From Puniceicoccaceae bacterium (lineage in GTDB: Bacteria > Verrucomicrobiota > Verrucomicrobiia > Opitutales > Opitutaceae), in assembly GCA_007695295.1 (NCBI GenBank), contig REEB01000092.1, positions 1 through 41,076 on the forward strand: a DNA stretch of 41,076 nucleotides, written 5' to 3'. The position numbers were made by a program, and so were the translations under genes. The notes under the pieces are model-generated. The model saw nothing but the letters and a program-made list of their open reading frames with translations. It did no database searches and was not told the DNA's origin. Numbering within the stretch: the first letter of the stretch is position 1; every line of letters starts with the position of its first letter. Below are positions 13,835-35,638 of the stretch, in pieces.

Positions 13835-15325
13835 TCAGAAGAGCTGGACCAGGGCGCGCTGCAGCGGCTGCAGCACCAGCGAGGGGAAGAGGCCAAGCAG
13901 GACCAGCACGGAGCCGCAGACCAGACACACCGCGGTACCGGCGGAGGTGTCGCGGGTCGGTGCGGCGTCCGCTGGAGCCGGGGCGAAAAAGACCTGCTTG
14001 AGTACGCGCAGGTAATAATAAAGCGAGACCGCGCTCATCAGCAAAGCCAGTGCAACCAGCCACAGGAGCCCCGGGACGGTACCCGGCGTCCCACCGGAAA
14101 GGGCGGCGGCAAAGAGCTGGAACTTACCGAAGAAGCCCACCAGCGGAGGGAGTCCGGCCAGGGAAAGGAGCGCCAGGGCCAGCACCCCCGCGGCCGCCGG
14201 AGCGGTGCGCCCGAGGCCGGCAAAATCCTCCAGGCGGTCGGCGCCGCGGGCTCGCAGCACGCACCCCGCCACCCCGAAGGCGGCGAGACTGGCCACGCCA
14301 TAAATCACACTATAGAAAAGCACCGCCCGAACCGCTTCGGCATTGGCCGCCACAAGTGCCGTGAGGATGAACCCGCTGTGTCCGATGCCCGAATACGCCA
14401 AGAGACGGCGCACACTTTGCTGCGCGAGGGCGGCAAGGTTGCCCACCACCATCGAGAGCGCCGCCAAGACCGCGACCAACGGCGCCCAGCCCATCGCGAA
14501 CGCCCCCCAGTCCGCGCTGCCCTCCACCACGCCAAATCCCAGCACAAGGACTTTTGCGACGATGAAAAACCCCGCCACCTTCGAGGCCGAGGCGATGAAT
14601 CCGGCGGCCGGCGCGGGGGCGGATTGATAAACGTCGGGCGCCCAGAGGTGAAACGGCACCGCCGCAACTTTGAAACCGAAACCCACCAAAGCCAGCCCCA
14701 CCCCGAGCGGGAGGATGGGTTCGACGGGATGTGCGGCCAACACCTTCGCGATGACCCGCAGGTCGATGCTGCCGGTGGCGCCGTAGATGAAGCTGAAGCC
14801 GAAGAGCAGAAAGGCGGCCGCCACACTGCCGAAGAAAAAGTACCGCAACGCCGCCTCGGCCGGCCGGCCAGCGGGGGCGGCAAAGACCACCATCAGGTAG
14901 AGGGCGAGCGAGGCGAGTTCCAGCCCGACAAAGAGAAGGAGGAGATTTTCCGTGCCGACAACCACCAGCAGTCCGAGCAGCGCCAGCAGCAGCAAGGCGC
15001 TGTTTTCCGCCCCGCGCCCTTCGTTCCCGCCGGCTTCTCCCCCGGGAAATAGAAACAGGGCGGTCCCCAAAGTCAGGGCAAGCAGGACGGCTTTGAACAG
15101 TCGGGTGAGTGCATCTACCACGATCATGCCCTCCAGCAACCGCCCGGACTCCGGTCCGAAAACCACCGCCGCCAGGGCCAGCCCCAGCCCCGCCGCCGTG
15201 ACCGCAAGCACTGCTTTGCCGCCGCCCCGGCTTCCTCCGGCGCAGCCCATGCCAATCAGAACCAGCGCGGTCACCAAGACCGCGATTTCCGGCAAGACAT
15301 GCGAAATCAGTTCCAGGTAGTTCAC
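13835..15325 (-). CDS. nuoN: Complex I membrane subunit NuoN
   Basis: An antiporter-like proton-pumping subunit of complex I in the inner membrane, 496 residues with about 14 helices. Seen: LFVGLELASLALYLMV (TM5 Glu), GFGFKVAAVPFHLWAPDVYQSAP (TM7 Lys and the NuoN-typical PDVYQ), SKVAGFFIVAKV (TM8 Lys) and GLPPLVGFFGKFQLF (NuoN has Lys in place of the TM12 Glu). The GTG start at 15325 overlaps the nuoM2 stop as GTGA, which decides the start. Last gene of the nuo cluster. Confidence 0.95.
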   Translation of the reverse strand: MNYLELISHVLPEIAVLVTALVLIGMGCAGGSRGGGKAVLAVTAAGLGLALAAVVFGPESGRLLEGMIVVDALTRLFKAVLLALTLGTALFLFPGGEAGGNEGRGAENSALLLLALLGLLVVVGTENLLLLFVGLELASLALYLMVVFAAPAGRPAEAALRYFFFGSVAAAFLLFGFSFIYGATGSIDLRVIAKVLAAHPVEPILPLGVGLALVGFGFKVAAVPFHLWAPDVYQSAPAPAAGFIASASKVAGFFIVAKVLVLGFGVVEGSADWGAFAMGWAPLVAVLAALSMVVGNLAALAQQSVRRLLAYSGIGHSGFILTALVAANAEAVRAVLFYSVIYGVASLAAFGVAGCVLRARGADRLEDFAGLGRTAPAAAGVLALALLSLAGLPPLVGFFGKFQLFAAALSGGTPGTVPGLLWLVALALLMSAVSLYYYLRVLKQVFFAPAPADAAPTRDTSAGTAVCLVCGSVLVLLGLFPSLVLQPLQRALVQLF

Positions 15326-16815
15326 GGCAGTAACACGCGCATGAGATCGCTGTTCATGGCTTCCAGGATCGGGGCGATCCACGGTTGCGGATAAAGGCCG
15401 ATGCCCAACGCCGCCGCCAAAAGGAGGACGGCGCCGATGATTTCCGGCAGACTGATGGGTTCATACTGCGCTCCGGCGTCGGCGGATTCACGTCCCCCGG
15501 CCGCTCTGGAGAAAAAGGCCTGCTGCAGCGCCTTGAGGGTGAAGGCCACCGTCAGCAGCACTCCGATACCGGCCGGCAGCAGGAGCAGGGGAAAGGCGCC
15601 CCAGGTTCCCACCAAAACCAACACTTCGGCGATGAAGCCACTGAAACCCGGCAACCCCATCGAAGCGGCCGAGGCGAGGACAAAGACGAAGGCCGCAAAC
15701 GGCAGCGCCCGCCGCAGCCCCAGGCCCGCGAGGACGGCCAGCTCGCGGGTATGCACGCGGTCGTGCAGCATCCGACCCGCCACCGCGAAGAGGAGCGAGG
15801 CGATCACACCGTGGGAGACCATCTGGAGCACCCCGCCGGCCACACCCAGGGATGTCAGACTGAGAATTCCGAGGAGCACAAAGCCCATGTGGCTGATGCT
15901 TGAATAAGCGATGACGAATTTCAGATCCCGCTGCGCCAAGGCCGCTCCCGCCCCCCAGGCAATGCCCACCGCCGCCATCGAGGCGAAGATCAGTCTCCAC
16001 GCCTCCAGCCCTTCAGGAAACAAAGGCATCGCAATCCGAAGAGCCCCGTAGGCGCCAAGCTTCATCACCACCCCGGCCAGCAACATTGAGGCCGCCGTCG
16101 GCGCCGCCACATGCCCCCCGGGCACCCAAGTGTGAAACGGCCAGATGCCCGCCAGAATCGCAAACCCGAGAAAGAGCACCGGAAAGGCCCAGAGTTGCAG
16201 CCCGGGGGCGAAGCTTGCCGCCGCCAGTTCCAACAAACCGAAGGTATCCAGTCCCGATGCCACCCGCGCCGCCAGAATCCCGATGATGACAAGCGCACTC
16301 CCCACGATCGAGTAAAGCGTCAGTTTCATCGCGGCATAGCTCCGATTGGTCGATCCCCAGCCCGCGATGAGAAAATACTTCGGCACAATCACGATTTCGT
16401 AGAAGACCAGGAAGAGAAACAGATCGAGGCTGAGAAAAACACCGTAGGCGCCGGCGATAATCAGAAGATAAAGGGCGAAAAAATGCCGCGGCGCGCGCTC
16501 CACATTCCAGGAAAACAATATTCCCGCAACCGCCACCAAGGCGGTCAGCACGATGAGCACCAGGCTGATGCCGTCCACCCCGAGGTGAAACGTAATCCCG
16601 AGGGCGGGAATCCACTCCCGTTGGACCTCCAGTTGAAACCCCGCCGCGCCGGCGCCGGCGCCGAAGTCGAAGCTCCACACCGCCACCGCCACCGGCAGGC
16701 AGCCCGCGAGAGCCGCCGCCAGCGCAACGCGCCGGGCCAGCCCCGCCCGCCGCGCCGGCAGCAGGAAGAGAAGGGCGGAGCCAATCAACGCGGTGAGAAA
16801 GGTCCAGGCAATCAT
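15322..16815 (-). CDS. nuoM: Second NuoM-like proton-pumping subunit (NuoM2)
   Basis: A second, divergent NuoM of 497 residues immediately after the first. Seen: TM5 Glu140 (VFYEIVIVPKYFLI), His228 (WPFHTW), TM8 Lys252 (VVMKLGAYG) and the TM12 Glu in GLPGFSGFIAEVLVL. The TM7 lysine (NuoM K234 in E. coli, in 'AVKxP') is not there: the matching text is GFAILAGIWPFHTW, with Leu221 at that place. The loop reads GGHVAAP instead of the acidic DxxxEAP. It is therefore a real paralogue and not a recent duplicate. The ATG at 16815 overlaps the nuoM1 stop (ATGA). Extra NuoM subunits define the '2M' type of complex I. Confidence 0.93.
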   Translation of the reverse strand: MIAWTFLTALIGSALLFLLPARRAGLARRVALAAALAGCLPVAVAVWSFDFGAGAGAAGFQLEVQREWIPALGITFHLGVDGISLVLIVLTALVAVAGILFSWNVERAPRHFFALYLLIIAGAYGVFLSLDLFLFLVFYEIVIVPKYFLIAGWGSTNRSYAAMKLTLYSIVGSALVIIGILAARVASGLDTFGLLELAAASFAPGLQLWAFPVLFLGFAILAGIWPFHTWVPGGHVAAPTAASMLLAGVVMKLGAYGALRIAMPLFPEGLEAWRLIFASMAAVGIAWGAGAALAQRDLKFVIAYSSISHMGFVLLGILSLTSLGVAGGVLQMVSHGVIASLLFAVAGRMLHDRVHTRELAVLAGLGLRRALPFAAFVFVLASAASMGLPGFSGFIAEVLVLVGTWGAFPLLLLPAGIGVLLTVAFTLKALQQAFFSRAAGGRESADAGAQYEPISLPEIIGAVLLLAAALGIGLYPQPWIAPILEAMNSDLMRVLLP

Positions 16816-18317
16816 GGCAGCAGTGCGAAGCCGGAGTGAAAGAGACGCAGGAGCAGTCCGGGGAAGCACCCCAGAACGACCATCAGGCCGACAATCGGGA
16901 ACAACATCAGCCCCTCCCGACGGGTGAGATCGGGAAAAGCCTGCCAGCGCTCGGGCAGAGGTCCGGAAAACACCCGGAGCAGCACCCGGAGCAGAAAGCC
17001 CGCCGTCAGCAACAGCCCCGGAAGCGCCAGCGCGACCCATCCGCCGACGAGGCCGAAAGCCCCTTTGAAGATCAGGAACTCGCCCACAAACCCGCTCAGC
17101 CCCGGAAGCCCGATGGACGCAAACAGGGCCACCCCCATCAGGCCGCAAAGCATCGGCGCGGCCGCCCGCAATCCCCCGAAATCATGCAGGCCCCGCAGCC
17201 CGCCGGAGCGCGCTTCAATGACCGCGACAAACGCAAACAACGTCGCCGCCGTCACTCCGTGGCTGAACATCTGGAAACAAACCCCGGCCAGTGCCGCCTC
17301 CCTCCCCGCCGCCAGTCCCGCGGCAGGCCCGGCCGCCGCGCCGACGGCGAAGAGCCCGAGAAGGCAATAGCCGAGATGGTTGATCGACGAGTAGGCGAGG
17401 ATTCGTTTGAGATCCGTCTGCGCGAGGGCCGCGAGGGCGGAAAGCAGGATGGAAGCCAGAGCCAGCACCAGGAGCGGCGCCATCCAAGCCTGCATGAGCT
17501 CGGGAAAAAGCGGCAACAGAATCCGCAGCATCCCGTACAAACCCATCTTCGAAAGCAGTCCGGTCAGAATCATGCTCACGCCGGCAGGGGCTTCGGCGTA
17601 GGTGTCGGGAAGCCAGGTGTGGAAGGGCACCACCGGCACCTTGACGGCCAGGCCGAGAAAGACTCCGGCAAAAACCAGCCCCGCTGCAACCGGCGCACCC
17701 ACCGCCAGGGACGGCATCAGCTCGCCCGCCCGCGCCGCTTCCGCCAAGTCAATGAAGTCGAAACTTCCGGTGGCCCGGAAGAGGGCGAGAAAGGCCAGCA
17801 GCATCGCGATGCTGCCGGTCATCGTGTAGAGGAAAAACTGATACGCCGCCGGGCCCGCCCGGTCGCCGCCCCACAGTTTGATGAGAAAAAACGCCGGGAT
17901 CAGGGCCAGTTCCCAAAAGAGGAACCAGACCACAAAGTTGAGGGAGAGGAATACGCCCAGCGCCGCCGCCTGCAGGAGTGACATGAGTGCGAAGAAGAGG
18001 CGCGGCAGGGGCAGCTCCGGAGGCGTCATCCAGAGCGCAAATGGACCAAGCAGACCAGCCAGCAGCACCAGGAGCACGCCGAGCCCGTCGGCGCCAAAAT
18101 ACCACTCCGCCCCCAGGGCGGGTATCCAGTCGTACCGGAAAACAAACTGCAGTCCGCCGACCGCGGTATCGTAGCGGAGCACCGCGGCCAGCGCGAGGGC
18201 CAGACCGGCAAAGGCAAAGCCGAGGGCGATCCGGCGGGCCAGCCCGGCCGGAGCGAGGGCAAGCACGACGGACGCAAGAAGCGGCAGGGCGATGATAAGC
18301 GGAAGGAGCGGGTCCAC
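16812..18317 (-). CDS. nuoM: Complex I membrane subunit NuoM (first copy)
   Basis: A proton-pumping antiporter-like subunit, 501 residues, with a complete set of key residues: TM5 Glu136 (LFWELALIPAFF), TM7 Lys226 (GLAVKVPVVPFHTWLPD), the acidic loop TYAEAP, TM8 Lys257 (LLSKMGLYG) and the TM12 Glu in GLPGLSGFVGEFLIF. An extra Ala/Gly-rich stretch (GAAAGPAAGLAAGREAAL) sits in a loop before QMFSHGVTAATLF. The start is a GTG at 18317, 18 bp after nuoL ends, with no clear ribosome site. It is followed by a four-base overlap with nuoM2. Confidence 0.95.
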   Translation of the reverse strand: MDPLLPLIIALPLLASVVLALAPAGLARRIALGFAFAGLALALAAVLRYDTAVGGLQFVFRYDWIPALGAEWYFGADGLGVLLVLLAGLLGPFALWMTPPELPLPRLFFALMSLLQAAALGVFLSLNFVVWFLFWELALIPAFFLIKLWGGDRAGPAAYQFFLYTMTGSIAMLLAFLALFRATGSFDFIDLAEAARAGELMPSLAVGAPVAAGLVFAGVFLGLAVKVPVVPFHTWLPDTYAEAPAGVSMILTGLLSKMGLYGMLRILLPLFPELMQAWMAPLLVLALASILLSALAALAQTDLKRILAYSSINHLGYCLLGLFAVGAAAGPAAGLAAGREAALAGVCFQMFSHGVTAATLFAFVAVIEARSGGLRGLHDFGGLRAAAPMLCGLMGVALFASIGLPGLSGFVGEFLIFKGAFGLVGGWVALALPGLLLTAGFLLRVLLRVFSGPLPERWQAFPDLTRREGLMLFPIVGLMVVLGCFPGLLLRLFHSGFALLP

Positions 18318-26044: not shown

Positions 26045-29000
26045 TCAGCCCAACTTCCGCAACCGGACCCGGGTATCATAGAAGCTGACGCTCGCACCGA
26101 TGGGATCGGAGAGGGCGGTGTTTTTGAGGAAGGGGTCGACCCGCATGACGGCGTTGGCGTTGATGCCACGCCCGCGGCGGTCGTCGCGCCGGAGGAGGTC
26201 GCCATCGACCCGCATGTCGGTGGCCCCGTTGCCCCATTGGCCGAAGCCGAGGGAAAAGGTCACCACGCCGGGTCGCATGCCTTCGACAACCTTGATTTTA
26301 CCGGCCACCCGGCGCTTGCCAAGTCCGCCGAGATCCCAAACGCCGTCCGGATTGGTCGCGCTCTCGATCACGACTTCGTCGCCGGTTTTCAGGCCCGAGG
26401 CCCGGGCGGTCAGGCGGTTCATGAGGATAGCGTTTTCTGGAGTCACGGCGAGGAGCCAGTAGGCGGAATTGGTGCGGGTTTTGGTCTGCACGCTCTGACG
26501 GTAGGTGCTGAGGAGCAGCGGATAGTCGCTTTCGGTGTCCGCAAGCTCGCGGCCAAGGCTGTCGAGGACGGGATAGTGGCGCGCAATCCCGTCGTAGCGT
26601 TGTCCGGTCATGCTGTTGCGGAAGCGCGCGGTCTTTTCGCAGTAGAGATTGATCAGCCGGGCGTAGGCGTTGGTGAGCAACTCGCCGCGGTAGGTGTCGG
26701 GGTAGTCCTGATAACGGCCCCCGCGATTGAGCACATAGATCACTTTCTTCCACCACTCTTCGCCGACGGACTCTTTCCAGCGCTTTTCCTCAAAGGTGTG
26801 GCCGGCGAGGTGGCGGCGGGACTTTCTGAAAACCTCTTCCTCGCGCGCATCGGCATCAGGGACGGGGGTGCCGTCGGCGGCGACGTTGGCCACCATTTTG
26901 AGATAATAATGATCCGGATGCGTGAGCGGCATCCCGCCGCCGAAACCATCGGGGCCGAATCCGCTCAATCCCATTTTTTCGGCCATGGCCATCATCATGG
27001 ACTCCAGCGTGATGGGCATTTCCTCGCCGAAGACGGTGCAGGTGTCGACCAACGGCGTGACCACGGGAGTCCGCACGGGTTGGACTTTTTGCGCGACGGA
27101 CCCGTGGGATCCGTGGAACTCCCAGCGCTCATAGAAGGTGCCATCGGGGAAGATGTAGTCTGCGTAGGCGGAAGTGGCGCCGATGGTGATGTCATTGGCG
27201 ATGAAGAGCGGGATTTTCGCCGTGTCGGAGAGAATGGCGTTGAGCTCGTTGCCTGCCGGCAAGGCGTAGTTGGGGGCGCCCATGTAGAGGATGAGCGCTT
27301 TGATGGTATACGGGTAGCCGTCGCCCGCGGAGGGAATGACCTCCTGGTAAATGCTGTCGGCGATCGGATACCACGGGCGCCGGGAGGGGTACCCGTTGAA
27401 GAGGGTGGATTTCTCATATTCCACCCGGTCGCGGATGATGGGGATGCCGAAGGGCCCGAGCTTGCCCGGGTGCAGGTTGTTGACCGGGAAGGGCTGGCCG
27501 CTCCCGGTGCCGGTGGCGTTGTAGGTGGATGCCTCGATCATGCCGCCCTTCCAGCCAATGTTGCCGATGAGGAGGTTGAGGCTCATCCAGGCCGCGGTGG
27601 CAAGGTAACCATTGGTGTGCTGGGAGACCCCGCGGTGAATGTCCGCCGACGCCTTTTTGCCATGGCTGGTGAATTCGCGGGCCAGGTCGACGATGTCGCG
27701 CACGCGGATCCCGCAGATCTCCGCCCAGCCCGCGAGGCTGTGCTCGCAGGCGGACTCGTAGAGCAATTGCAGGCTGCTCTTCACAGGGATGCCGCCCAAG
27801 GTGGTGTCCACCAGGAGGTCGCCGACGACGGGATTGATCGGGTCGTTTGCATCCACCGCCTGGATACGGCCCTCACGCAGGACGACGAATCGGTCCGGGT
27901 CGCCTTCGGGACGGGTTTCGGCGGGCAGGTCGCCCACACGAAGCAAGTCGCCCGGGCCGTCGGCTTCCATCTTCACCAGCCAACTTGAGTTGCTCCAGTT
28001 GGGCTCGCCGACGGCGTCCGCGGCCGCCTTGTTGGCGGCGGAGAGGTAGGCTTGGTCGTAGCGACGGTTCTCGATGATCCAGCGAATCAGGGCGAGGGCG
28101 AGGCCGGTTTCGCTGGCAGGTTTGGCCGGCAGCCATTTCCAGGCCATCCCGCCGAGTTTGCCCATGCGCGGATCGACGACTGCGAACTTGAACCGGCGCT
28201 CGGTCAGTCCGTTGGTGATTTTCGGTGTGCGCAGCGGCGGGCCATAGCCGCCCTCGAAGGCATTCGAGCCGACGAAGATGACAAACTCAGCGTTCTTCAG
28301 ATCGGCCTGCCAATAAAATTTCCGACCCCCCGTCCATTGTCCGTTAACGTATTGCTCGCTCATGGCCCGGCAGGCGAAGTAGAGCGAACCCTGGCAAACG
28401 GTGGTGTGTCCGATGCGGTTGACGGTTCCGAAGGAATCGCTGATGAAGCGCTGAACAAACTGGCTGCGCCCGGCCTTCATGCGGCCCCAGTTGAAAACCA
28501 ATTGATTGTTGCGCGGCCCGAGGTCGGGGTGATCGGGATCAATGAGTTTATCAAGGTGGTTCCGGTGCTTTTGCCTGAACTCCGTCACCGTCATTTCTCC
28601 CGCCGTGATTTTACCCGCGTCCGCCCGGAGGAGCGCCATGACCCCGGGATCGCGCAGCGCGCAAATGCCGGCCAGGCCTTCCACCTCCCGGGCCTCTTCG
28701 CCGGGCACGTCTGCGAACAACCGCCCGCCCTCCACCACCTCGGCAATGGCCTGTTCAAACGGAATGCTCGTCCACTTTCCCTCCCCGCGGCGCCCCGTGC
28801 GCTTGAGAACCCGGCGGATCCGGTAGGGATCATAAAGCGTCTGAATGCCCGCCTGCCCCTTGGGGCAGATGGCCCCGTCGAGTTTGGCGATTTCGGGATC
28901 CGCGGGACTGTGGTGGTACCGAAGGTGGGGTGTCATCGTCCACGGGCTGTAGGGATTGCCGTCGACCTTGATCATAACCCCGTCGACGATCTTCGCTTTG

Positions 29001-29227
29001 ATACCGCAACCCGTGTTGCAGTTCATGCAAGTGGTGTAGAGAATGTTCTCCGCCTGAGCCAATTCGTAAAACTCATCCGGCGATAGCTCGCCGGAGGCCG
29101 CGCGGGCGGAGAGATCATCGGCCCGGCGACACGAAGCCGCCAAGGCCGCACAGCCCCCCACCAAGGCACTGGTGGTGAGAAACTGGCGACGTGAGACGGC
29201 GGAGGGCTGGGTTTGGGTGTCGTTCAT
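26045..29227 (-). CDS. TtrA-like molybdopterin oxidoreductase catalytic subunit
   Basis: A 1060-residue periplasmic molybdoenzyme of the DMSO-reductase superfamily. A Tat signal is clear (SRRQFLTTSALVGG at 12-25). The [4Fe-4S] motif is Cys67-x2-Cys70-x3-Cys74 with Cys121 (ICPKGQ). A likely Mo-ligand cysteine is Cys278 (TTVCQGSLYFA). Text resembling tetrathionate reductase TtrA, as I remember it, includes RRGEGKWTSIPFEQAIAEVVEG, HPDLGPRNNQLVFNWGR and ALIRWIIENRRYDQAYL. Length and the gene order B-C-A also match ttrBCA and the selenate reductase srdBCA. Tetrathionate, selenate, arsenate or another oxyanion are all possible; the window does not decide. It lies between the NrfD subunit and nuoA. 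Confidence 0.85.
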   Translation of the reverse strand: MNDTQTQPSAVSRRQFLTTSALVGGCAALAASCRRADDLSARAASGELSPDEFYELAQAENILYTTCMNCNTGCGIKAKIVDGVMIKVDGNPYSPWTMTPHLRYHHSPADPEIAKLDGAICPKGQAGIQTLYDPYRIRRVLKRTGRRGEGKWTSIPFEQAIAEVVEGGRLFADVPGEEAREVEGLAGICALRDPGVMALLRADAGKITAGEMTVTEFRQKHRNHLDKLIDPDHPDLGPRNNQLVFNWGRMKAGRSQFVQRFISDSFGTVNRIGHTTVCQGSLYFACRAMSEQYVNGQWTGGRKFYWQADLKNAEFVIFVGSNAFEGGYGPPLRTPKITNGLTERRFKFAVVDPRMGKLGGMAWKWLPAKPASETGLALALIRWIIENRRYDQAYLSAANKAAADAVGEPNWSNSSWLVKMEADGPGDLLRVGDLPAETRPEGDPDRFVVLREGRIQAVDANDPINPVVGDLLVDTTLGGIPVKSSLQLLYESACEHSLAGWAEICGIRVRDIVDLAREFTSHGKKASADIHRGVSQHTNGYLATAAWMSLNLLIGNIGWKGGMIEASTYNATGTGSGQPFPVNNLHPGKLGPFGIPIIRDRVEYEKSTLFNGYPSRRPWYPIADSIYQEVIPSAGDGYPYTIKALILYMGAPNYALPAGNELNAILSDTAKIPLFIANDITIGATSAYADYIFPDGTFYERWEFHGSHGSVAQKVQPVRTPVVTPLVDTCTVFGEEMPITLESMMMAMAEKMGLSGFGPDGFGGGMPLTHPDHYYLKMVANVAADGTPVPDADAREEEVFRKSRRHLAGHTFEEKRWKESVGEEWWKKVIYVLNRGGRYQDYPDTYRGELLTNAYARLINLYCEKTARFRNSMTGQRYDGIARHYPVLDSLGRELADTESDYPLLLSTYRQSVQTKTRTNSAYWLLAVTPENAILMNRLTARASGLKTGDEVVIESATNPDGVWDLGGLGKRRVAGKIKVVEGMRPGVVTFSLGFGQWGNGATDMRVDGDLLRRDDRRGRGINANAVMRVDPFLKNTALSDPIGASVSFYDTRVRLRKLG

Positions 29228-29276
29228 GGTGATGCCTCGGTTGGAGAAGGATGAGATTGAAAAAGGACGGGCGGGC

Positions 29277-30479
29277 TCAGTGGTGTTCCCTCAGGTAGGG
29301 TTCCACGATAAAGCGGTAGCCCACGGTGAAAACGAGGAGTGAGATGCCGACGGCGAACACCACCACCTGCCACTCCATGAACATGGGCGTGTAGTCGAAG
29401 GTCAGTTTCGAATGATAAAAGGCCTCCTTGATGCCTTCCATCGTCGGCATGGGATAGGCCAGGCCGGGAATGATAATGTTTACCGGCACCATGGTGAACC
29501 CGATCAGATAGCAGATCGAAGCCGCGCCGATGGCCAGCAACCGGGTCCGCCAGAACGATAGAAGCAACAACGGAACCAGCACCCCGATGCCAAGGTGGAC
29601 AATCCAGATCGTCCACCAGTAGGGTCCGAAGAGGACGAGCTTGAGACCCTCCGCATGGGCCGGCACATTGGGATAGGCGATGACCAGGCCATTCGCCAGC
29701 GAGGCGATCAGGCCGATGATGATGGCCGCCAGAAAGACCCGCGCCATCTGGATGGCGGTGGCTTTATATTGCGGGGTGCCTCGGGTGGGTGAAAAGAGCA
29801 GGTGCAGCAAGGTGAGCAGCCCCAGCCCCGCGACCAGCGAGGCGATGAAAAACATCAGGGGAAGCACCGATGCATTCCAGAAGGGACGCGCCGCCACCAC
29901 TCCAAAGAGGCCCCCGATGACCGCAATCAGCAGCACGCCGATCGGGATGCTGATGTAGGTCAGGAAGTTGAGATAAATTTTCCAGCGATCCACATAATTC
30001 TTCCCCCGGAAGTAGGCGAAAAGCTCGGCGGTGAGAATGACCAAATAGAGCGTGTGCAGCCAAATCATCCATGACATCAGCGACCCGAAGTTGGGCTGCA
30101 AATACGCTTTCCAGAAGCGGAAGGGATGCCCCAGATCCATTCCGATGACAAAGAGCGCCCCGAGCAAAGCGCTGATCGCCGCCAGCATGGCCACGGGGGC
30201 CAATAGCCGCAGCCCCTCGATTTGCATGAACCTGCGCAGGAGAAAATAGGTCAGGATCATGCCCACCTCCAGCCACACCAGAAAAACATAAACGCCAACC
30301 CAGAGCCCCCAGGGCACGTAACTGGTGAGGGCGCCGTGGTCTTTGAACACCAGCACGCGCAAAACACCGTAAGCTCCGAAGAGCAGGGCGATGAAAGCCA
30401 GCGTAAGGGAAATCCGGTAGTCGATGGTCCGGTTCAGGCGCGGACCGGGAACGGCGGTTGCGGTAGCGGTGGATGCCAT
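29277..30479 (-). CDS. NrfD/PsrC-type membrane quinone subunit
   Basis: An integral membrane subunit, 400 residues with about nine to ten helices, that exchanges electrons with quinol/quinone for a periplasmic molybdoenzyme (NrfD/PsrC/TtrC family). Seen: WGLWVGVYVFLVWLEVG, the conserved VIGMDLGHPFRFWKAYLQPNFGSLMSWMIWLHTLY, and later YPNVPAHAEGLKLVLFGPYWW. The basic N-terminus with no signal and the location between the FeS and catalytic subunit genes fit TtrC/SrdC. The ATG at 30479 is used; the 49-bp gap to the catalytic gene holds nothing notable. Confidence 0.9.
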   Translation of the reverse strand: MASTATATAVPGPRLNRTIDYRISLTLAFIALLFGAYGVLRVLVFKDHGALTSYVPWGLWVGVYVFLVWLEVGMILTYFLLRRFMQIEGLRLLAPVAMLAAISALLGALFVIGMDLGHPFRFWKAYLQPNFGSLMSWMIWLHTLYLVILTAELFAYFRGKNYVDRWKIYLNFLTYISIPIGVLLIAVIGGLFGVVAARPFWNASVLPLMFFIASLVAGLGLLTLLHLLFSPTRGTPQYKATAIQMARVFLAAIIIGLIASLANGLVIAYPNVPAHAEGLKLVLFGPYWWTIWIVHLGIGVLVPLLLLSFWRTRLLAIGAASICYLIGFTMVPVNIIIPGLAYPMPTMEGIKEAFYHSKLTFDYTPMFMEWQVVVFAVGISLLVFTVGYRFIVEPYLREHH

Positions 30480-30534
30480 GGTGGTTGCGGTTGGAAAGTT
30501 GTTGTTAGTAATCAGCGGACATTCCGGACTGCGG

Positions 30535-31161
30535 TCAGATGAGGTAATAAACGCGCGGCCGGGTGCCCATTTCCTCCTTCAGGCGGATCTTGTTGCCCCG
30601 GCTGATCAGCTCCGCCACCAGGCTGTCGGGGTCGTTGGCATCGCCAAAGTAGGTGGCATATCCGATGCAACTGGTGACACACGACGGCAGCATGCCCGCA
30701 TCAAGCTTGTGCGAACAGAAATGGCACTTGCGAACATTGCCCGTCGGTGACCGTCCCCGGCGTTGTTCCCAGCGCTTTCCATATTCGAAATTGGGAACCC
30801 GCTCGTAGGGCTGGTTCGGCTCGGGCGTTCCCGTGGTGTAGTTGTAACCGAAATCAAAGGTGCGCGCATGGTAGGGGCAGGCTGTCATGCAGTAGCGGCA
30901 GCCGATGCACTGGTCGTAGTCCATGTCGACGATGCCATCGGGGCGGATCCAGGTGGCATGCACCGGGCAGACCGGCACGCAGGGAGCCGTCTCGCATTGC
31001 ATGCAGGGGCGGGGCGTGGAGCGCATCGAGACATTCGGATAAGTCCCCAGCTCCTCTTCCATCACCGGCCGATAAACCACCCCCGCCGGCAGGTGGTTTT
31101 CCGCGATGCAGGCGATGGTACAGGCGTTGCAGCCCGTGCATTTCCGAAGGTCGATGACCAT
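30535..31161 (-). CDS. TtrB-like four-cluster ferredoxin subunit, separated from its N-terminal part
   Basis: A 208-residue electron-transfer protein with sites for four [4Fe-4S] clusters: [37 protein letters not shown] and [20 protein letters not shown]. The last block and the end ([11 protein letters not shown]) read like TtrB. It starts at MVIDLRKC, exactly where family members have an internal 'W/Y-A/V-M-V-I-D-L' junction after a Tat signal. Here no signal peptide precedes it in the same frame, because an in-frame TGA stands two codons upstream (31165-31167). It may be made by re-initiation at this ATG, in which case it would have to ride to the periplasm with the catalytic subunit, or the gene is damaged. 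Confidence 0.85.
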
Positions 31162-31164
31162 GAC

Positions 31165-31593
31165 TCATTTGCGCTTTTCAATGGGTTTGCGCATGGCCTT
31201 TTGAAGCTCGCGCTGCATCCGCACGATAATGTTCTCCGCCTCGTCTTCCTCGAACTCAGGGCCATCCCTCAGGAAGCCCTCCTCCTGCGAGTCGGCGCGT
31301 CCCTCGGCCACCGCCTCCAGCCCGGCCCGCACCAGTGAGGGCATCGCCACCGTACCCAGCCCGACCAGCGAAGCCACTTTGGCGAGGAATCGCCCCCGCC
31401 CCATCGGCAGCTCCGTCTCAGCATCCTCGCCCACGCCGGCACCGGTCATGGCGGCGGCGATGGTTTCATCGCAGGCCAGGGCAGCTTCAGACCCCGCCGG
31501 TTTGGGGAATGGGTCCACTGAGGGGGATCCATCCGCCATTTCCGAAACCTTGGTGGAAACAGGGACTGGTTCAAAGCGTGTGGGAGTTTTCAT
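31165..31593 (-). CDS. Tat-signal-like N-terminal part of the TtrB-like subunit, ended by an in-frame UGA
   Basis: A 142-residue frame in the same reading frame as the ferredoxin gene that follows one codon after its stop. It has no cysteine cluster. Residues 64-90 look like a Tat-type signal (MGRGRFLAK, then VASLVGLGTVAMPSLVRA), although the arginines are R-G-R and not R-R. Met64 (31404) would place this signal at the N-terminus and may be the true start. After it comes a charged helix (ENIIVRMQRELQKAMRKPIEKRK). A single G-to-A change would turn TGG into the TGA and rejoin the two parts as K-W-V-M-V-I-D. A separate small protein is the alternative reading. Confidence 0.65.
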   Translation of the reverse strand: MKTPTRFEPVPVSTKVSEMADGSPSVDPFPKPAGSEAALACDETIAAAMTGAGVGEDAETELPMGRGRFLAKVASLVGLGTVAMPSLVRAGLEAVAEGRADSQEEGFLRDGPEFEEDEAENIIVRMQRELQKAMRKPIEKRK

Positions 31594-31606
31594 GCCGGGA
31601 TCGGGT

Positions 31607-32083
31607 TCAAGAGATTGGAATGGGGAGGCGATTTGGCCTGGCTGAAGTACGCCCGAGGGGAGGTGGATTCGCCTGCGACCGCTCCATGGCGATCATCCGG
31701 GCAAGGGAAATACGCCCCAACTCCCGCCGGATGCGCTCCCGCTCGCGGGGCCAAAAGTCACGACACGGACACGCCGTCCCGTCCCGGCAATAGGCCTCGC
31801 CGAGAAGACAGTCCGGCAGGAAATCCTTGCCCTCCACCGCTTCGGCGATCTCCAGCAGCGAGATCCGCTCCGGTATGCGGGCCAGCCGGGTGCCGCCGGA
31901 CCGGCCCCGCTTCGCTTCGATCACCCCGCCGGCCGCCAGCTTCTTGAAAATCTTCGGGAGGTAGGAGGCCGGCACCCCGCTGCAAGCCGCAATCGCGCGA
32001 GTGTACTGGGTCGCGCAGTCCCGGCCCTCCATACAGACCAGTGCTTTCACCGCGTAGCCGACGCCCTGGGACAAAGAGAACAT
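31607..32083 (-). CDS. Rrf2-family transcriptional regulator with Cys cluster
   Basis: A winged-helix regulator of the Rrf2/IscR/NsrR family, 158 residues. Seen: the N-terminus LSQGVGYAVKALVCM, recognition region IAACSGVPASYLPKIFKKLAAGGVIEAKRGRSGGTRLA, and LLEIAEAVEG. Four cysteines lie close together: Cys92, 99, 105 and 107 (DCLLGEAYCRDGTACPC). That is the place where IscR and NsrR bind an Fe-S cluster, so redox, NO or Fe-S status is a likely signal (inference). The ATG at 32083 matches the family start; 32101 is possible. It is the first gene of the respiratory operon, 13 bp before the next gene. Confidence 0.88.
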   Translation of the reverse strand: MFSLSQGVGYAVKALVCMEGRDCATQYTRAIAACSGVPASYLPKIFKKLAAGGVIEAKRGRSGGTRLARIPERISLLEIAEAVEGKDFLPDCLLGEAYCRDGTACPCRDFWPRERERIRRELGRISLARMIAMERSQANPPPLGRTSARPNRLPIPIS

Positions 32084-32105
32084 CAAAGGGAGGATCGTCA
32101 TAAAA

Positions 32106-32141
32106 GATACCGATGTCACCTTTAAAGAGGACAAATGTATC
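32106..32141. promoter_or_regulatory. 36-bp imperfect palindrome, candidate Rrf2 operator
   Basis: Two 18-bp halves centred on TTTAAA share GATAC-N4-GTC at the outside and TTT at the centre (13 of 18 positions match). It lies 23 bp upstream of the chosen start of the Rrf2 gene, in the divergent region to the large secreted-protein gene. A-T-rich dyads of this kind overlapping the promoter are normal for Rrf2 regulators. It would control the whole ttr-like/nuo operon if that is one transcript. Confidence 0.55.
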
Positions 32142-32320
32142 CTTTTTATTATCGCTTATGGTGTTCATTAGACTAATTCGGCTCGGCCGCGTTGGGGATT
32201 GCCGGGACGGTCCGCCTCTTGGTAAAAAATTGCGGTCTTCTTCCCAGAATCGAGCCCCCCGCCACGGGACCTTCCGGCCGCCGGATCCTTCCCTTTGATT
32301 TCCAAGTCGTTTCGCCCCCC

Positions 32321-35300
32321 ATGACCACCTCCACACCCTCCCCTGCCGGGATTTTCCGCTTTTCCACTTGCTTCGTTTTCTGCCTCTTGGCCGCGCTGTT
32401 TTTCAGTGCCGCGGTCTCCCGACTCCCGGCCTCCACTTACTCTTGGACGGGGCCTTCGCCCATCAACCAAAACTTCAGCGGCAACTGGAATGTGGCCTCC
32501 AACTGGACCCCCTTCGGCTGGCCCTCCTCCGCCACCGACATCGCGTTGATCTCCAACGCCTCCGCTCCGCCCTATACCGTCACCCTCAATCTCAATCTCA
32601 CCCTCAATGAGATTTTCATGATCGCTCCGGCCACCTTGAGCGCCACCAGCCGCGTTCTGGAGACCATCGGGAGCTCAACCATCGATTCGGGTACGGTCTT
32701 TTGGAATGGCTCCACTTGGCGGGGCGGCACGCTCACCAACAAGGGGCTGATGCGGTTCGAAGGCGGGTCTGTGCTCGATTTCACCACTTTCAGCCAGGAG
32801 GGCGATCTGGTCATCCAAGGCCGGAGCACGGCCGATGGTTTCCTCACCGTCCGCAACGGCTTTGCCAACCTTGGCAGCATCGAGCTGACTTCGATCGCCA
32901 ACCGTCCCTCGGTCTTTCGGGTGACCAACGGGGTCCTGGAAAACTTCGGCACCATAGCGCTTCGGCCCGGAGCCGGCGGCGAACGCACCTGGAGCGCCGA
33001 TCTGGTCAACCAAGGGTTCTTTGATGTCGAATCGCCCAGCATTTTCCTGCGCAACGGCGGCACCTATTCCAATTATGGAACCTTTCGCATCCTGCCGACA
33101 GGGTTGCTCACCATCACCGGCGCCAACCAGTCCCTCGTCCAGGCCAGCGGCACGCTCGACAATCAGGGTGCGCTCCAGCTCACCGAAGTGACTTTCGACT
33201 TCCAGGGCGGCGCCCTCGCCGGCAACGCCCCGGTGCTCGCGGGTGGCCGGCTCAAACTTGCCCCCGGCTCCGCCGGAAGCGGCTCTTTCATCCTCCGCCG
33301 CTCGGTCACCCTCGACGGCAATATCCATCCGGACCAGTCGCTTCGGATCGAGGGCGTCACCGGCCAGGACGGGATCCTCACCAGTCCGGCCGCCGTCACC
33401 AACCATAGCCTGCTCGTCCTAACTTCCACCGCCAACCGCCCGGCACGGTTCAACCTCACCGAGGGCGCTTTCACCAACACCACCAGCGGCACCGTCCGCC
33501 TGGCCGCCGGCAGCGGTGGTGCCCGCACGTGGAGCGCGCCGCTCGAAAACGAGGGCGACTTTTTCGTCGAAACCAACGCCATCTTCAGCAAAAGCAATGC
33601 GTCCTACACGAACCGCCAGCTCCTCCGCATCGAGCAAGGCGCCGCCCTCGGCATCAACAGCCAGAACCAGCGGCTCATCCAGGAAGCCGGCACCCTCGAT
33701 GTCCAGGGCGCCCTCAATCTCTTCGATGTCCCGTTCGACTTCCAGGGCGGCTCGCTCACCGGCAACGCCCCCATCGTCGAGGGGGGCAGCCTGCGCCTCG
33801 GCCCGGGCTCCGCCGGCAGCGGCTCGTTCATCCTCCGCCGCTCAGTCGCCTTCGAGGGCAACATCCATCCGGGCCAGCAGATCGAAATCCAGGGCATCCC
33901 CGGCCACGTGGGCGTCGCCACCAGCAGCTCCAGTGTGACCAACCAGGACAGCCTCATCCTCTCCTCCACCACCAACCAAGCCTCCCGCTTCGCCATCGAC
34001 GACGGCACCTTCGTCAACCTCCAGGGTGCCACGGTGCGCCTCGCCGCCGGCGCCGGCGGCCACCGGTTCTGGAGCGCGGGGCTCGGCAACGACGGCAGTT
34101 TCCTCGTCGAAACCAACGCCACTTTCGACAAGGACGACGCCCACACCACCAACCGCGGGCTCTTCCAAGTCGCGGCGGGCGCTTCCCTCACCATCTCAGG
34201 GGCCAGCCCGCAGTTCACCCAGACTTCGGGCACGCTCGACGTCCAGGGTGCCCTCAACCTCCACAACGGCGCCTTTCACTTCAATGGCGGCACCTTCGAG
34301 GGCAACCGCCCAATCCTCGAGGGCGGCGCCCTCTCCCTCGCTCCCGCCTCCGCCGGCAGCGGTTCGTTTCTCCTTCGCCGCGAGATGACCTTCGAGGGCA
34401 ATGTCCATCAGGGTCAAAGCATCGAAATCCAGGCCACCGCTGGCCACGACGCCCGCATCACCGCCCCTGGTCCGCTCACCAACCACCACTTCCTCATCCT
34501 TTCCTCCAACGCCAACCGCCCCTCCCTGCTGGAGGTCGAAAACGGCGACTTCACCAACGCAGCCACGGCCACGCTCGAAACCCGGGCGGGCGGCGGCGGC
34601 CTCCGCACCATCCGCGCCAACCTCGACAACCACGGCGAGTTCTTCGTCCATCAGCACACCGCCATCGACCGGGCCGAGGCCGAAGTGGTCAACCACGGCC
34701 TGGTTGTGATCGCCGACGGACAATCCCTCACCATCGCCGGCACCTACCGTCAGGAAACCGGCACCACCCGTCTGCACCGCGCCACGCTCGAGGCCAGCGG
34801 CGCCATCGCCCTCGACGGCGGCCGCCTCGCCGGCACCGGCGCCATCGCCGCTTCGCTCGACAACGCCGCCACCCTCTCCCTCGGCCCCGGCCCTCACGGA
34901 CTTACCGTATCCGGCAATTACCTGCAAACTTCCGTCGGCACCCTCGAAATCGAGTTCGCCAGCCCCACCCCGGTGGAAAAACAGGATCCGCTTGCCGTCG
35001 CCGGAAACGCCACCCTCGCCGGAACCCTCGAAGTCACGCTCCTCGACGGCTATGAGCCCGAAATCGGCGACACCTTCACGCTCCTCACCGCCGCCTCCGT
35101 CCACGGCGCTTTCGATGCCTGGAGCGGCGGCGGCCACCGCCCCGGCCGCGGCTGGAAGGTCGACACCACCCCCACCGCCGTCATCCTCCGCGTCGGCCCC
35201 GGGCCAATTTCCTTTCACGATTGGTTGAACGAATTTTACACCGCCGCGGAGCGGGCCGACCCCGCCATTGGCGGCCCCAACGGCGACCCCGGAAACACCG

Positions 35301-35638
35301 GCATCGACAACCTCACCCGCTACTTTCTCGGCATGACCCCCTGGGCGCCCGACCCCGCCCTCCTGCCCCGCCCGGTCGTGGTCTCGCTCGAAAACGGCGG
35401 CCCGTCCACCCGCCACCTCGCCTTCGAATTCGAGCGCCGCCGCCAACCCATGGGTGTCACCGCCACGTATCAGTTTTCCAAGGACATGCAGACTTGGACC
35501 GAGGCCGGGCTCAGCGAGGAGATCCTCTTCGCCGGCAACACCATGGAAACCGTCCGCATCCGCGTCGAGGAGCCCATCGCCGAGGACGGCGACGACACCG
35601 GCTTCCTCCGCCTCGTCCTCGCCGATACCCGGCCCTGA
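32321..35638 (+). CDS. Large secreted repeat protein (predicted beta-helix)
   Basis: A 1105-residue exported protein. The ATG at 32321 starts a signal peptide (hydrophobic FVFCLLAALFFSAAV). The bulk is four tandem repeats of about 180 residues, rich in Gly, Asn, Thr and Ser, with lines such as GSGSFILRRSV, NRPARF, GGARTWSA, TLDVQGALNL and FDFQGG. These should form a long parallel beta-helix. Near 900-980 there is text like autotransporter-associated repeats (AGTLEVTLLDGYEPEIGDTFTLLTAASVHGAFDAW). There is no C-terminal beta-barrel. The end (GIDNLTRYFLGM, YQFSKDMQTWTEA) resembles the C-terminal segment common on verrucomicrobial secreted proteins. Function is unknown; adhesion or a surface layer is only a guess. 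It is divergent from the Rrf2 gene. Confidence 0.85.
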   Translation: MTTSTPSPAGIFRFSTCFVFCLLAALFFSAAVSRLPASTYSWTGPSPINQNFSGNWNVASNWTPFGWPSSATDIALISNASAPPYTVTLNLNLTLNEIFMIAPATLSATSRVLETIGSSTIDSGTVFWNGSTWRGGTLTNKGLMRFEGGSVLDFTTFSQEGDLVIQGRSTADGFLTVRNGFANLGSIELTSIANRPSVFRVTNGVLENFGTIALRPGAGGERTWSADLVNQGFFDVESPSIFLRNGGTYSNYGTFRILPTGLLTITGANQSLVQASGTLDNQGALQLTEVTFDFQGGALAGNAPVLAGGRLKLAPGSAGSGSFILRRSVTLDGNIHPDQSLRIEGVTGQDGILTSPAAVTNHSLLVLTSTANRPARFNLTEGAFTNTTSGTVRLAAGSGGARTWSAPLENEGDFFVETNAIFSKSNASYTNRQLLRIEQGAALGINSQNQRLIQEAGTLDVQGALNLFDVPFDFQGGSLTGNAPIVEGGSLRLGPGSAGSGSFILRRSVAFEGNIHPGQQIEIQGIPGHVGVATSSSSVTNQDSLILSSTTNQASRFAIDDGTFVNLQGATVRLAAGAGGHRFWSAGLGNDGSFLVETNATFDKDDAHTTNRGLFQVAAGASLTISGASPQFTQTSGTLDVQGALNLHNGAFHFNGGTFEGNRPILEGGALSLAPASAGSGSFLLRREMTFEGNVHQGQSIEIQATAGHDARITAPGPLTNHHFLILSSNANRPSLLEVENGDFTNAATATLETRAGGGGLRTIRANLDNHGEFFVHQHTAIDRAEAEVVNHGLVVIADGQSLTIAGTYRQETGTTRLHRATLEASGAIALDGGRLAGTGAIAASLDNAATLSLGPGPHGLTVSGNYLQTSVGTLEIEFASPTPVEKQDPLAVAGNATLAGTLEVTLLDGYEPEIGDTFTLLTAASVHGAFDAWSGGGHRPGRGWKVDTTPTAVILRVGPGPISFHDWLNEFYTAAERADPAIGGPNGDPGNTGIDNLTRYFLGMTPWAPDPALLPRPVVVSLENGGPSTRHLAFEFERRRQPMGVTATYQFSKDMQTWTEAGLSEEILFAGNTMETVRIRVEEPIAEDGDDTGFLRLVLADTRP
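32701..34780 (+). repeat. Four 540-bp in-gene tandem repeats
   Basis: The GSGSF(I/L)LRR block ends at exactly 33300, 33840 and 34380, a strict 540-bp (180-codon) period. An earlier, more diverged unit starts near 32760. The copies differ at many bases, so the array is old and maintained at the protein level, but long near-identical stretches remain that could recombine. Confidence 0.85.

Follow-up and report, generated by a model that had tools for sequence, protein, structure and literature searches.

In Salmonella, the genes for the TtrABC system are found in the order B-C-A (ttrBCA). PsrABC and ArrAB (solved structures 2vpw and 6cz7) are distant relatives of the gene cluster described here, with similarity in the ferredoxin and the molybdopterin subunits. 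TtrB of Enterobacteriaceae is described, in passages of PMC6708511, as having a Tat motif without the RR pair, and is called there the only known native cargo with a KR motif. For genes that lie close together, passages of PMC10666635 take stop-to-start distances between -8 and +10 nt to predict termination-reinitiation, with near loss of the process by about 20 nt, and report translational coupling as enriched for subunits of complexes. A Shine-Dalgarno motif was not essential in those Haloferax volcanii (H. volcanii) pairs that the relevant part of PMC6728339 covers.

Here we describe a gene cluster found in a stretch of 41,076 nucleotides (contig REEB01000092.1 of assembly GCA_007695295.1, Puniceicoccaceae bacterium), in the following called the window. 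Genes for a ferredoxin (B), an NrfD-type membrane subunit (C) and a molybdopterin subunit (A) lie together in one cluster, and share the order B-C-A and the NrfD-type C with TtrABC (Table 1). Among the NCBIfam models, A is matched best by TtrA (488.6 bits, cut-off 1750), and B is matched best by DsrO (170.2 bits, cut-off 200) and second best by TtrB (160.1 bits, cut-off 416). The window differs from TtrABC in that its TtrA and TtrB scores are far below the cut-offs, in the Rrf2 regulator located upstream and in the interruption of the B gene. We suggest that the operon encodes a TtrABC-like membrane-bound molybdoenzyme.

The B subunits of PsrABC and ArrAB start at about the same place as the ferredoxin frame of the window, whereas the window's close relatives carry an additional, conserved N-terminal helix. 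With termination-reinitiation gene pairs the window shares the closeness of the two frames, +3 nt from stop to start. The difference is that the pair in the window appears to be born of a nonsense change inside one gene.

Table 1. Features of the B-C-A gene cluster, listed in the direction of transcription
Feature	Coordinates	Strand	Remarks
Rrf2-family regulator	31607..32134	-	Upstream of B; inside the block common to G056
N-terminal piece of the B-subunit gene	31165..31593	-	142 codons plus the TGA; holds a Tat-like signal of degenerate type (GRGRFL) and the conserved helix IIVRMQRELQKAMRKPIEKRK
In-frame TGA	31165..31167	-	TGG in 94/117 other homologous loci, stop in 0/117
Ferredoxin domain frame, 208 aa	30535..31161	-	ATG 3 nt past the TGA; 4Fe-4S dicluster, TtrB/DsrO/PsrB/ArrB-like
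NrfD-type membrane subunit (C), 400 aa	29277..30479	-	Open; family model match
Molybdopterin catalytic subunit (A), TtrA-like, 1060 aa	26045..29227	-	Tat signal (SRRQFL) that passes the TAT model

The interrupted B-subunit gene

The initial annotation had placed the end of a Tat-signal frame at a TGA (31165-31167) and the start of the ferredoxin ORF just after it in the same frame. These coordinates were confirmed. In brief, the minus strand holds a 142 residue ORF (31593 to 31165) that ends in TGA (31167-31165), a single GTC codon, and the ATG at 31161, from which the ferredoxin ORF (to 30535, 208 residues) continues in the reading frame of the upstream piece. Reading the TGA as Trp joins both pieces into a single B subunit of 352 residues. 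A second ATG, at 31168 and out of frame, overlaps the stop of the B gene as ATGA. It should be noted that, without a flag, annotation would list the interrupted gene as two.

The junction was compared over 119 loci. The window's own locus and L020, whose match falls short of the junction, were left out. Among the 117 others are at least two pairs of duplicates (L005/L034 and L003/L004) and the own-genome paralogues L002-L004. At the position of the stop, Trp (TGG) is found in 94 of these loci, Phe in 11, Tyr in 10, and Leu and His in one each, and none of the 117 has a stop codon. The 13 distinct loci with at least 45% identity are all open across the junction, 12 with Trp and one (L118) with Tyr, and the codon of the nearest relatives is one base away from the TGA. 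In L005, L034, L035 and L036 the junction reads AAATGGGT(G/C), compared to AAATGAGTC in the window. A search of plasmids for homologues gave 655 records, with the best place of each below 60% identity.

As judged from its homologues, the B-subunit gene is one gene with a single nonsense change, located between the signal and helix part and the ferredoxin domain. This agrees with the initial annotation, in which reading the TGA as TGG was said to restore the usual junction of the family (K-W-V-M-V-I-D is usual among the close relatives) and a G-to-A nonsense mutation or a base error, interrupting one gene at a Trp codon, was among the options. Relatives with two truly separate genes, which would have spoken against this, were looked for and found at none of the 13 close loci.

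The N-terminal helix is strongly conserved among the close relatives. When the window is aligned with 11 of the 13 (L039 and L118 are absent from it, and L118 is without the helix motif), M126, L130, A133, K136, P137, E139, R141 and W143 are invariant; W143 of the window comes from the TGA read as Trp, so the invariance of this residue rests on the other rows (11 of 11).

Age of the stop codon

Change along the window branch was estimated for five segments, with bootstrap intervals. The sister was G056, which belongs to another family of the same order, and the outgroup was either L035 or L038. Non-synonymous change, window versus G056, was 0.103 vs 0.145 and 0.128 vs 0.129 for the N-terminal part, 0.030 vs 0.055 and 0.054 vs 0.030 for the helix (21 codons only), 0.017 vs 0.022 and 0.019 vs 0.019 for the ferredoxin, 0.022 vs 0.016 and 0.014 vs 0.025 for NrfD, and 0.051 vs 0.038 and 0.049 vs 0.040 for the A subunit. 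None of the five segments has a significant excess of amino acid change on the window branch, and all ten bootstrap intervals of the difference include zero. With synonymous distances of about 1 or more, decay of long standing would be expected to be visible. Gene decay was rejected for lack of such an excess, with the helix tested on 21 codons. As no segment indicates decay, the stop would be recent or an error in the consensus; most likely it is one of these rather than a novel type of decoding.

In our judgement a base or consensus error in the assembly, with the living gene intact and encoding one 352 residue B subunit, is a possible explanation, with the chances against it. The assembly is a draft in 278 contigs, the change is a single base that is unique among the 117 other loci, and relaxed selection is seen on neither side of the stop, all of which would suit an error. 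Against this, all 10 Nuo ORFs scanned on the contig are uninterrupted, with model matches that run almost from end to end, which argues mildly against an error-rich contig, and the frames of NrfD, A and Rrf2 are full length.

We consider it slightly better than an even bet, again as a matter of judgement, that the stop is a real, recent nonsense allele in an ordinary and probably horizontally acquired B-C-A operon, with a short ferredoxin made by re-initiation. The absence of a stop at all 117 other loci together with the one-base codon difference, the open rest of the operon, where the C and A frames are full length, and the lack of a branch excess favor this reading. So do the +3 nt gap, a core that seems complete from the internal Met, the existence of B relatives without a signal, and TatC. 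Against it, the ferredoxin ATG is without a Shine-Dalgarno 4-mer and the out-of-frame ATG of the ATGA could compete. In addition, the helix lost from the short product is strongly conserved in the close relatives, and the short product may not work. As found, the case is that of a single interrupted gene from one draft genome, of wider value only if the stop proves to be both real and common in the population.

Translation of the ferredoxin

Provided that the stop is real, termination-reinitiation is the probable route to the ferredoxin. We suggest that ribosomes ending at the TGA would re-initiate at the ATG 3 nt downstream, a distance within the -8 to +10 nt range, and produce a 208 residue Fe-S subunit without signal and without the conserved helix. 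The initial annotation expected an Fe-S subunit lacking its signal from such re-initiation, and this is supported. We found no Shine-Dalgarno 4-mer in the 22 nt before the ferredoxin ATG. Among eight other starts tested, those of the upstream ORF, NrfD and NuoA are without one, and those of A, NuoD, NuoI, NuoB and Rrf2 have one.

The Met equivalent to the ferredoxin start stands at position 6 in the PsrB chain and at position 5 in the ArrB chain. Since PsrB and ArrB begin near the same Met, a ferredoxin core starting there is expected to be complete. The AlphaFold model of the read-through form was poor (mean pLDDT 54.8, 25 sequences). It has 10-residue blocks above 80 only at approximately 121-150, where a helix (116-134) and a strand (143-148) are predicted, and 311-330.

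Tat signals and export of the B subunit

The SRRQFL motif of the A subunit has the twin arginine, and A passes the TAT model with 22.2 bits (cut-off 16.7). The initial annotation assigned a Tat signal to the B piece as well, which stands in part: the piece carries a degenerate Tat-like motif, but its R-G-R-F-L is not a twin arginine, and the piece (motif GRGRFL) gave no match to the TAT model and no other family hit.

The B motifs of the close clade are GRGRFL, GRKRFL, GRKQFL, NRKRFL or GRMRFI. The second arginine is missing in the window, L034, L035, L036 and L038 (RG, RK, RK, RK and RM), and the hydrophobic stretch is kept. Four of six more distant relatives have RR, namely L113 (DRRNFL), L119 (DRREFL), L114 (DRREFV) and L116 (SRRDFI), and the other two, L117 (ERGDFL) and L115 (TRAEFV), do not. 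L116 (19.8 bits) and L119 (17.2 bits) pass the cut-off of the TAT model, and L034 and L035 gave no TAT row; the model is an imperfect test, as L113 stays below the cut-off (13.9 bits) despite its DRRNFL. L113 and L119 (G311:C73) are two B-subunit genes approximately 6 kb apart in one genome, possibly in tandem operons.

B subunits without a hydrophobic signal were found at L037 (1537-2214), L039 (2887-3690) and L171 (4090-5115), the last being a plasmid locus of the haloarchaeon Halorientalis marina. Their A neighbours carry SRRDFLK, DRRTFLK and SRRDFVK, respectively. The DNA examined near L039 gave no NrfD match. The window's own genome encodes TatC.

As these three relatives pair a B without signal with an A bearing RR, a short B may still be exported on the signal of A. 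Export of an untagged subunit on the Tat signal of its partner is described in part of PMC10924467. In the window, the short Fe-S subunit could be exported together with the catalytic subunit, which has a Tat signal of its own. Loss of the B-subunit signal would plausibly be tolerated and need not be fatal. The function of the enzyme in this strain may be reduced or lost. The relatives without a signal already raise the question whether the B-subunit signal is needed, and the interrupted gene, should its stop prove real and frequent in the population, would be a natural test of that need when A carries a Tat signal.

Reading of UGA

The tRNA-Trp of this genome might read UGA usefully often, so that some full-length subunit with its signal would be made in addition to the short one. 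The replaced codon is Trp and both halves of the gene appear constrained. In passages of PMC5373646, UGA stops are over-represented among the recoding events of E. coli, and near-cognate Cys and Trp tRNAs are the proposed or favored explanation of two read-through cases. The remaining evidence is against it, and we regard such read-through as quite unlikely. RF2 is present in the own genome (511.2 bits, cut-off 370), and no SelB was found there over the cut-off (best 168.9 vs 242.25). ARAGORN assigned an anticodon to all 39 tRNA matches, none of them UCA, in a set that is incomplete (tRNAs for Asn and Ile are absent from the matches). The one tRNA-Trp(CCA) among them (L133:1498-1573) has A9, G24 and an anticodon stem of five pairs topped by a G-U pair, in our own numbering. 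The read-through variants of tRNA-Trp named in the relevant part of PMC13092985 are A9C, G24A and an unpinned 27-43 pair, and the tRNA found here has neither A9C nor G24A and is paired at all five stem positions. TGA terminates 23 of the 26 other main ORFs of the window, or 24 of 27 with the interrupted piece, where the set of 27 is our own selection. The local fold of the 120 nt around the stop is ordinary (z -0.70).

Given RF2, the tRNA-Trp described above and the many ORFs ended by TGA, a general suppressor is unlikely, and no sign of general UGA suppression was seen, though read-through at a low background level may occur. Read-through as a working mechanism, one of the options initially considered, was not upheld, RF2 being present and signs of suppression being absent from the genes listed above. 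Three special cases were rejected as well: selenocysteine, because the relatives have Trp at the site and SelB is below the cut-off; a change of code, because RF2 is present, no UCA tRNA is among the 39 found and TGA is common as terminator of the window's ORFs; and a recoding hairpin, because the fold around the stop is not unusual.

Very unlikely, in our view, is a stop that is both fixed and used, where a coupled pair would supply a signal-less Fe-S subunit riding the Tat signal of A and a little read-through would add the signal-bearing form. A stable, selected split, with the signal/helix peptide and the ferredoxin as two cooperating subunits made by coupled translation, would fit the very short stop-start distance, the constraint on both halves and the enrichment of coupling for complex subunits reported in part of PMC10666635, but it is known from one genome only, no split is seen at the 13 close loci and recency explains the constraint equally well, so that we consider it extremely improbable.

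Origin of the gene cluster

The Rrf2-B-C-A block (26045-32134) was probably acquired horizontally, as suggested by its alignments. Positions 26045-31408 of the window align to one contig of G056 with 81% nucleotide identity, and positions 31697-32083 align to the same contig with 75%. Within the 19 kb compared, the rest of the window gave no further alignment. The ferredoxin is 93% identical to that of G056, where the match has an E value of 1e-143, compared to no match better than 2.6e-37 in the 36 other genomes of the own family. In a sample across the phylum, 8 of 387 genomes, the own genome included, have a match at E 1e-60 or better. The GC content is 61.9% in the operon and 65.5% in the flanks on either side. 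A ferredoxin with 85% identity was found in a genome labelled Rhodothermaceae (L036).

NuoD, encoded on the same contig as the operon, is 63-69% identical to proteins of 17 of the 36 other own-family genomes and of G043, from another family, but at most 44% identical to G056. A NuoD of the own family beside a G056-like operon of lower GC is in line with horizontal acquisition and speaks against mis-binning of the contig, which was rejected because NuoD tracks the own family and the ferredoxin tracks G056.

Two neighbouring, overlapping ORFs at 15322-18317 each match the NuoM model over nearly the whole length. The Nuo cluster in which both are found also matches NuoL, NuoN, NuoH, NuoI and NuoA-D. 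Divergent from the operon, the plus strand holds an ORF of 1148 residues (32192-35638) that, judged by eye from its translation, looks repetitive and secreted.
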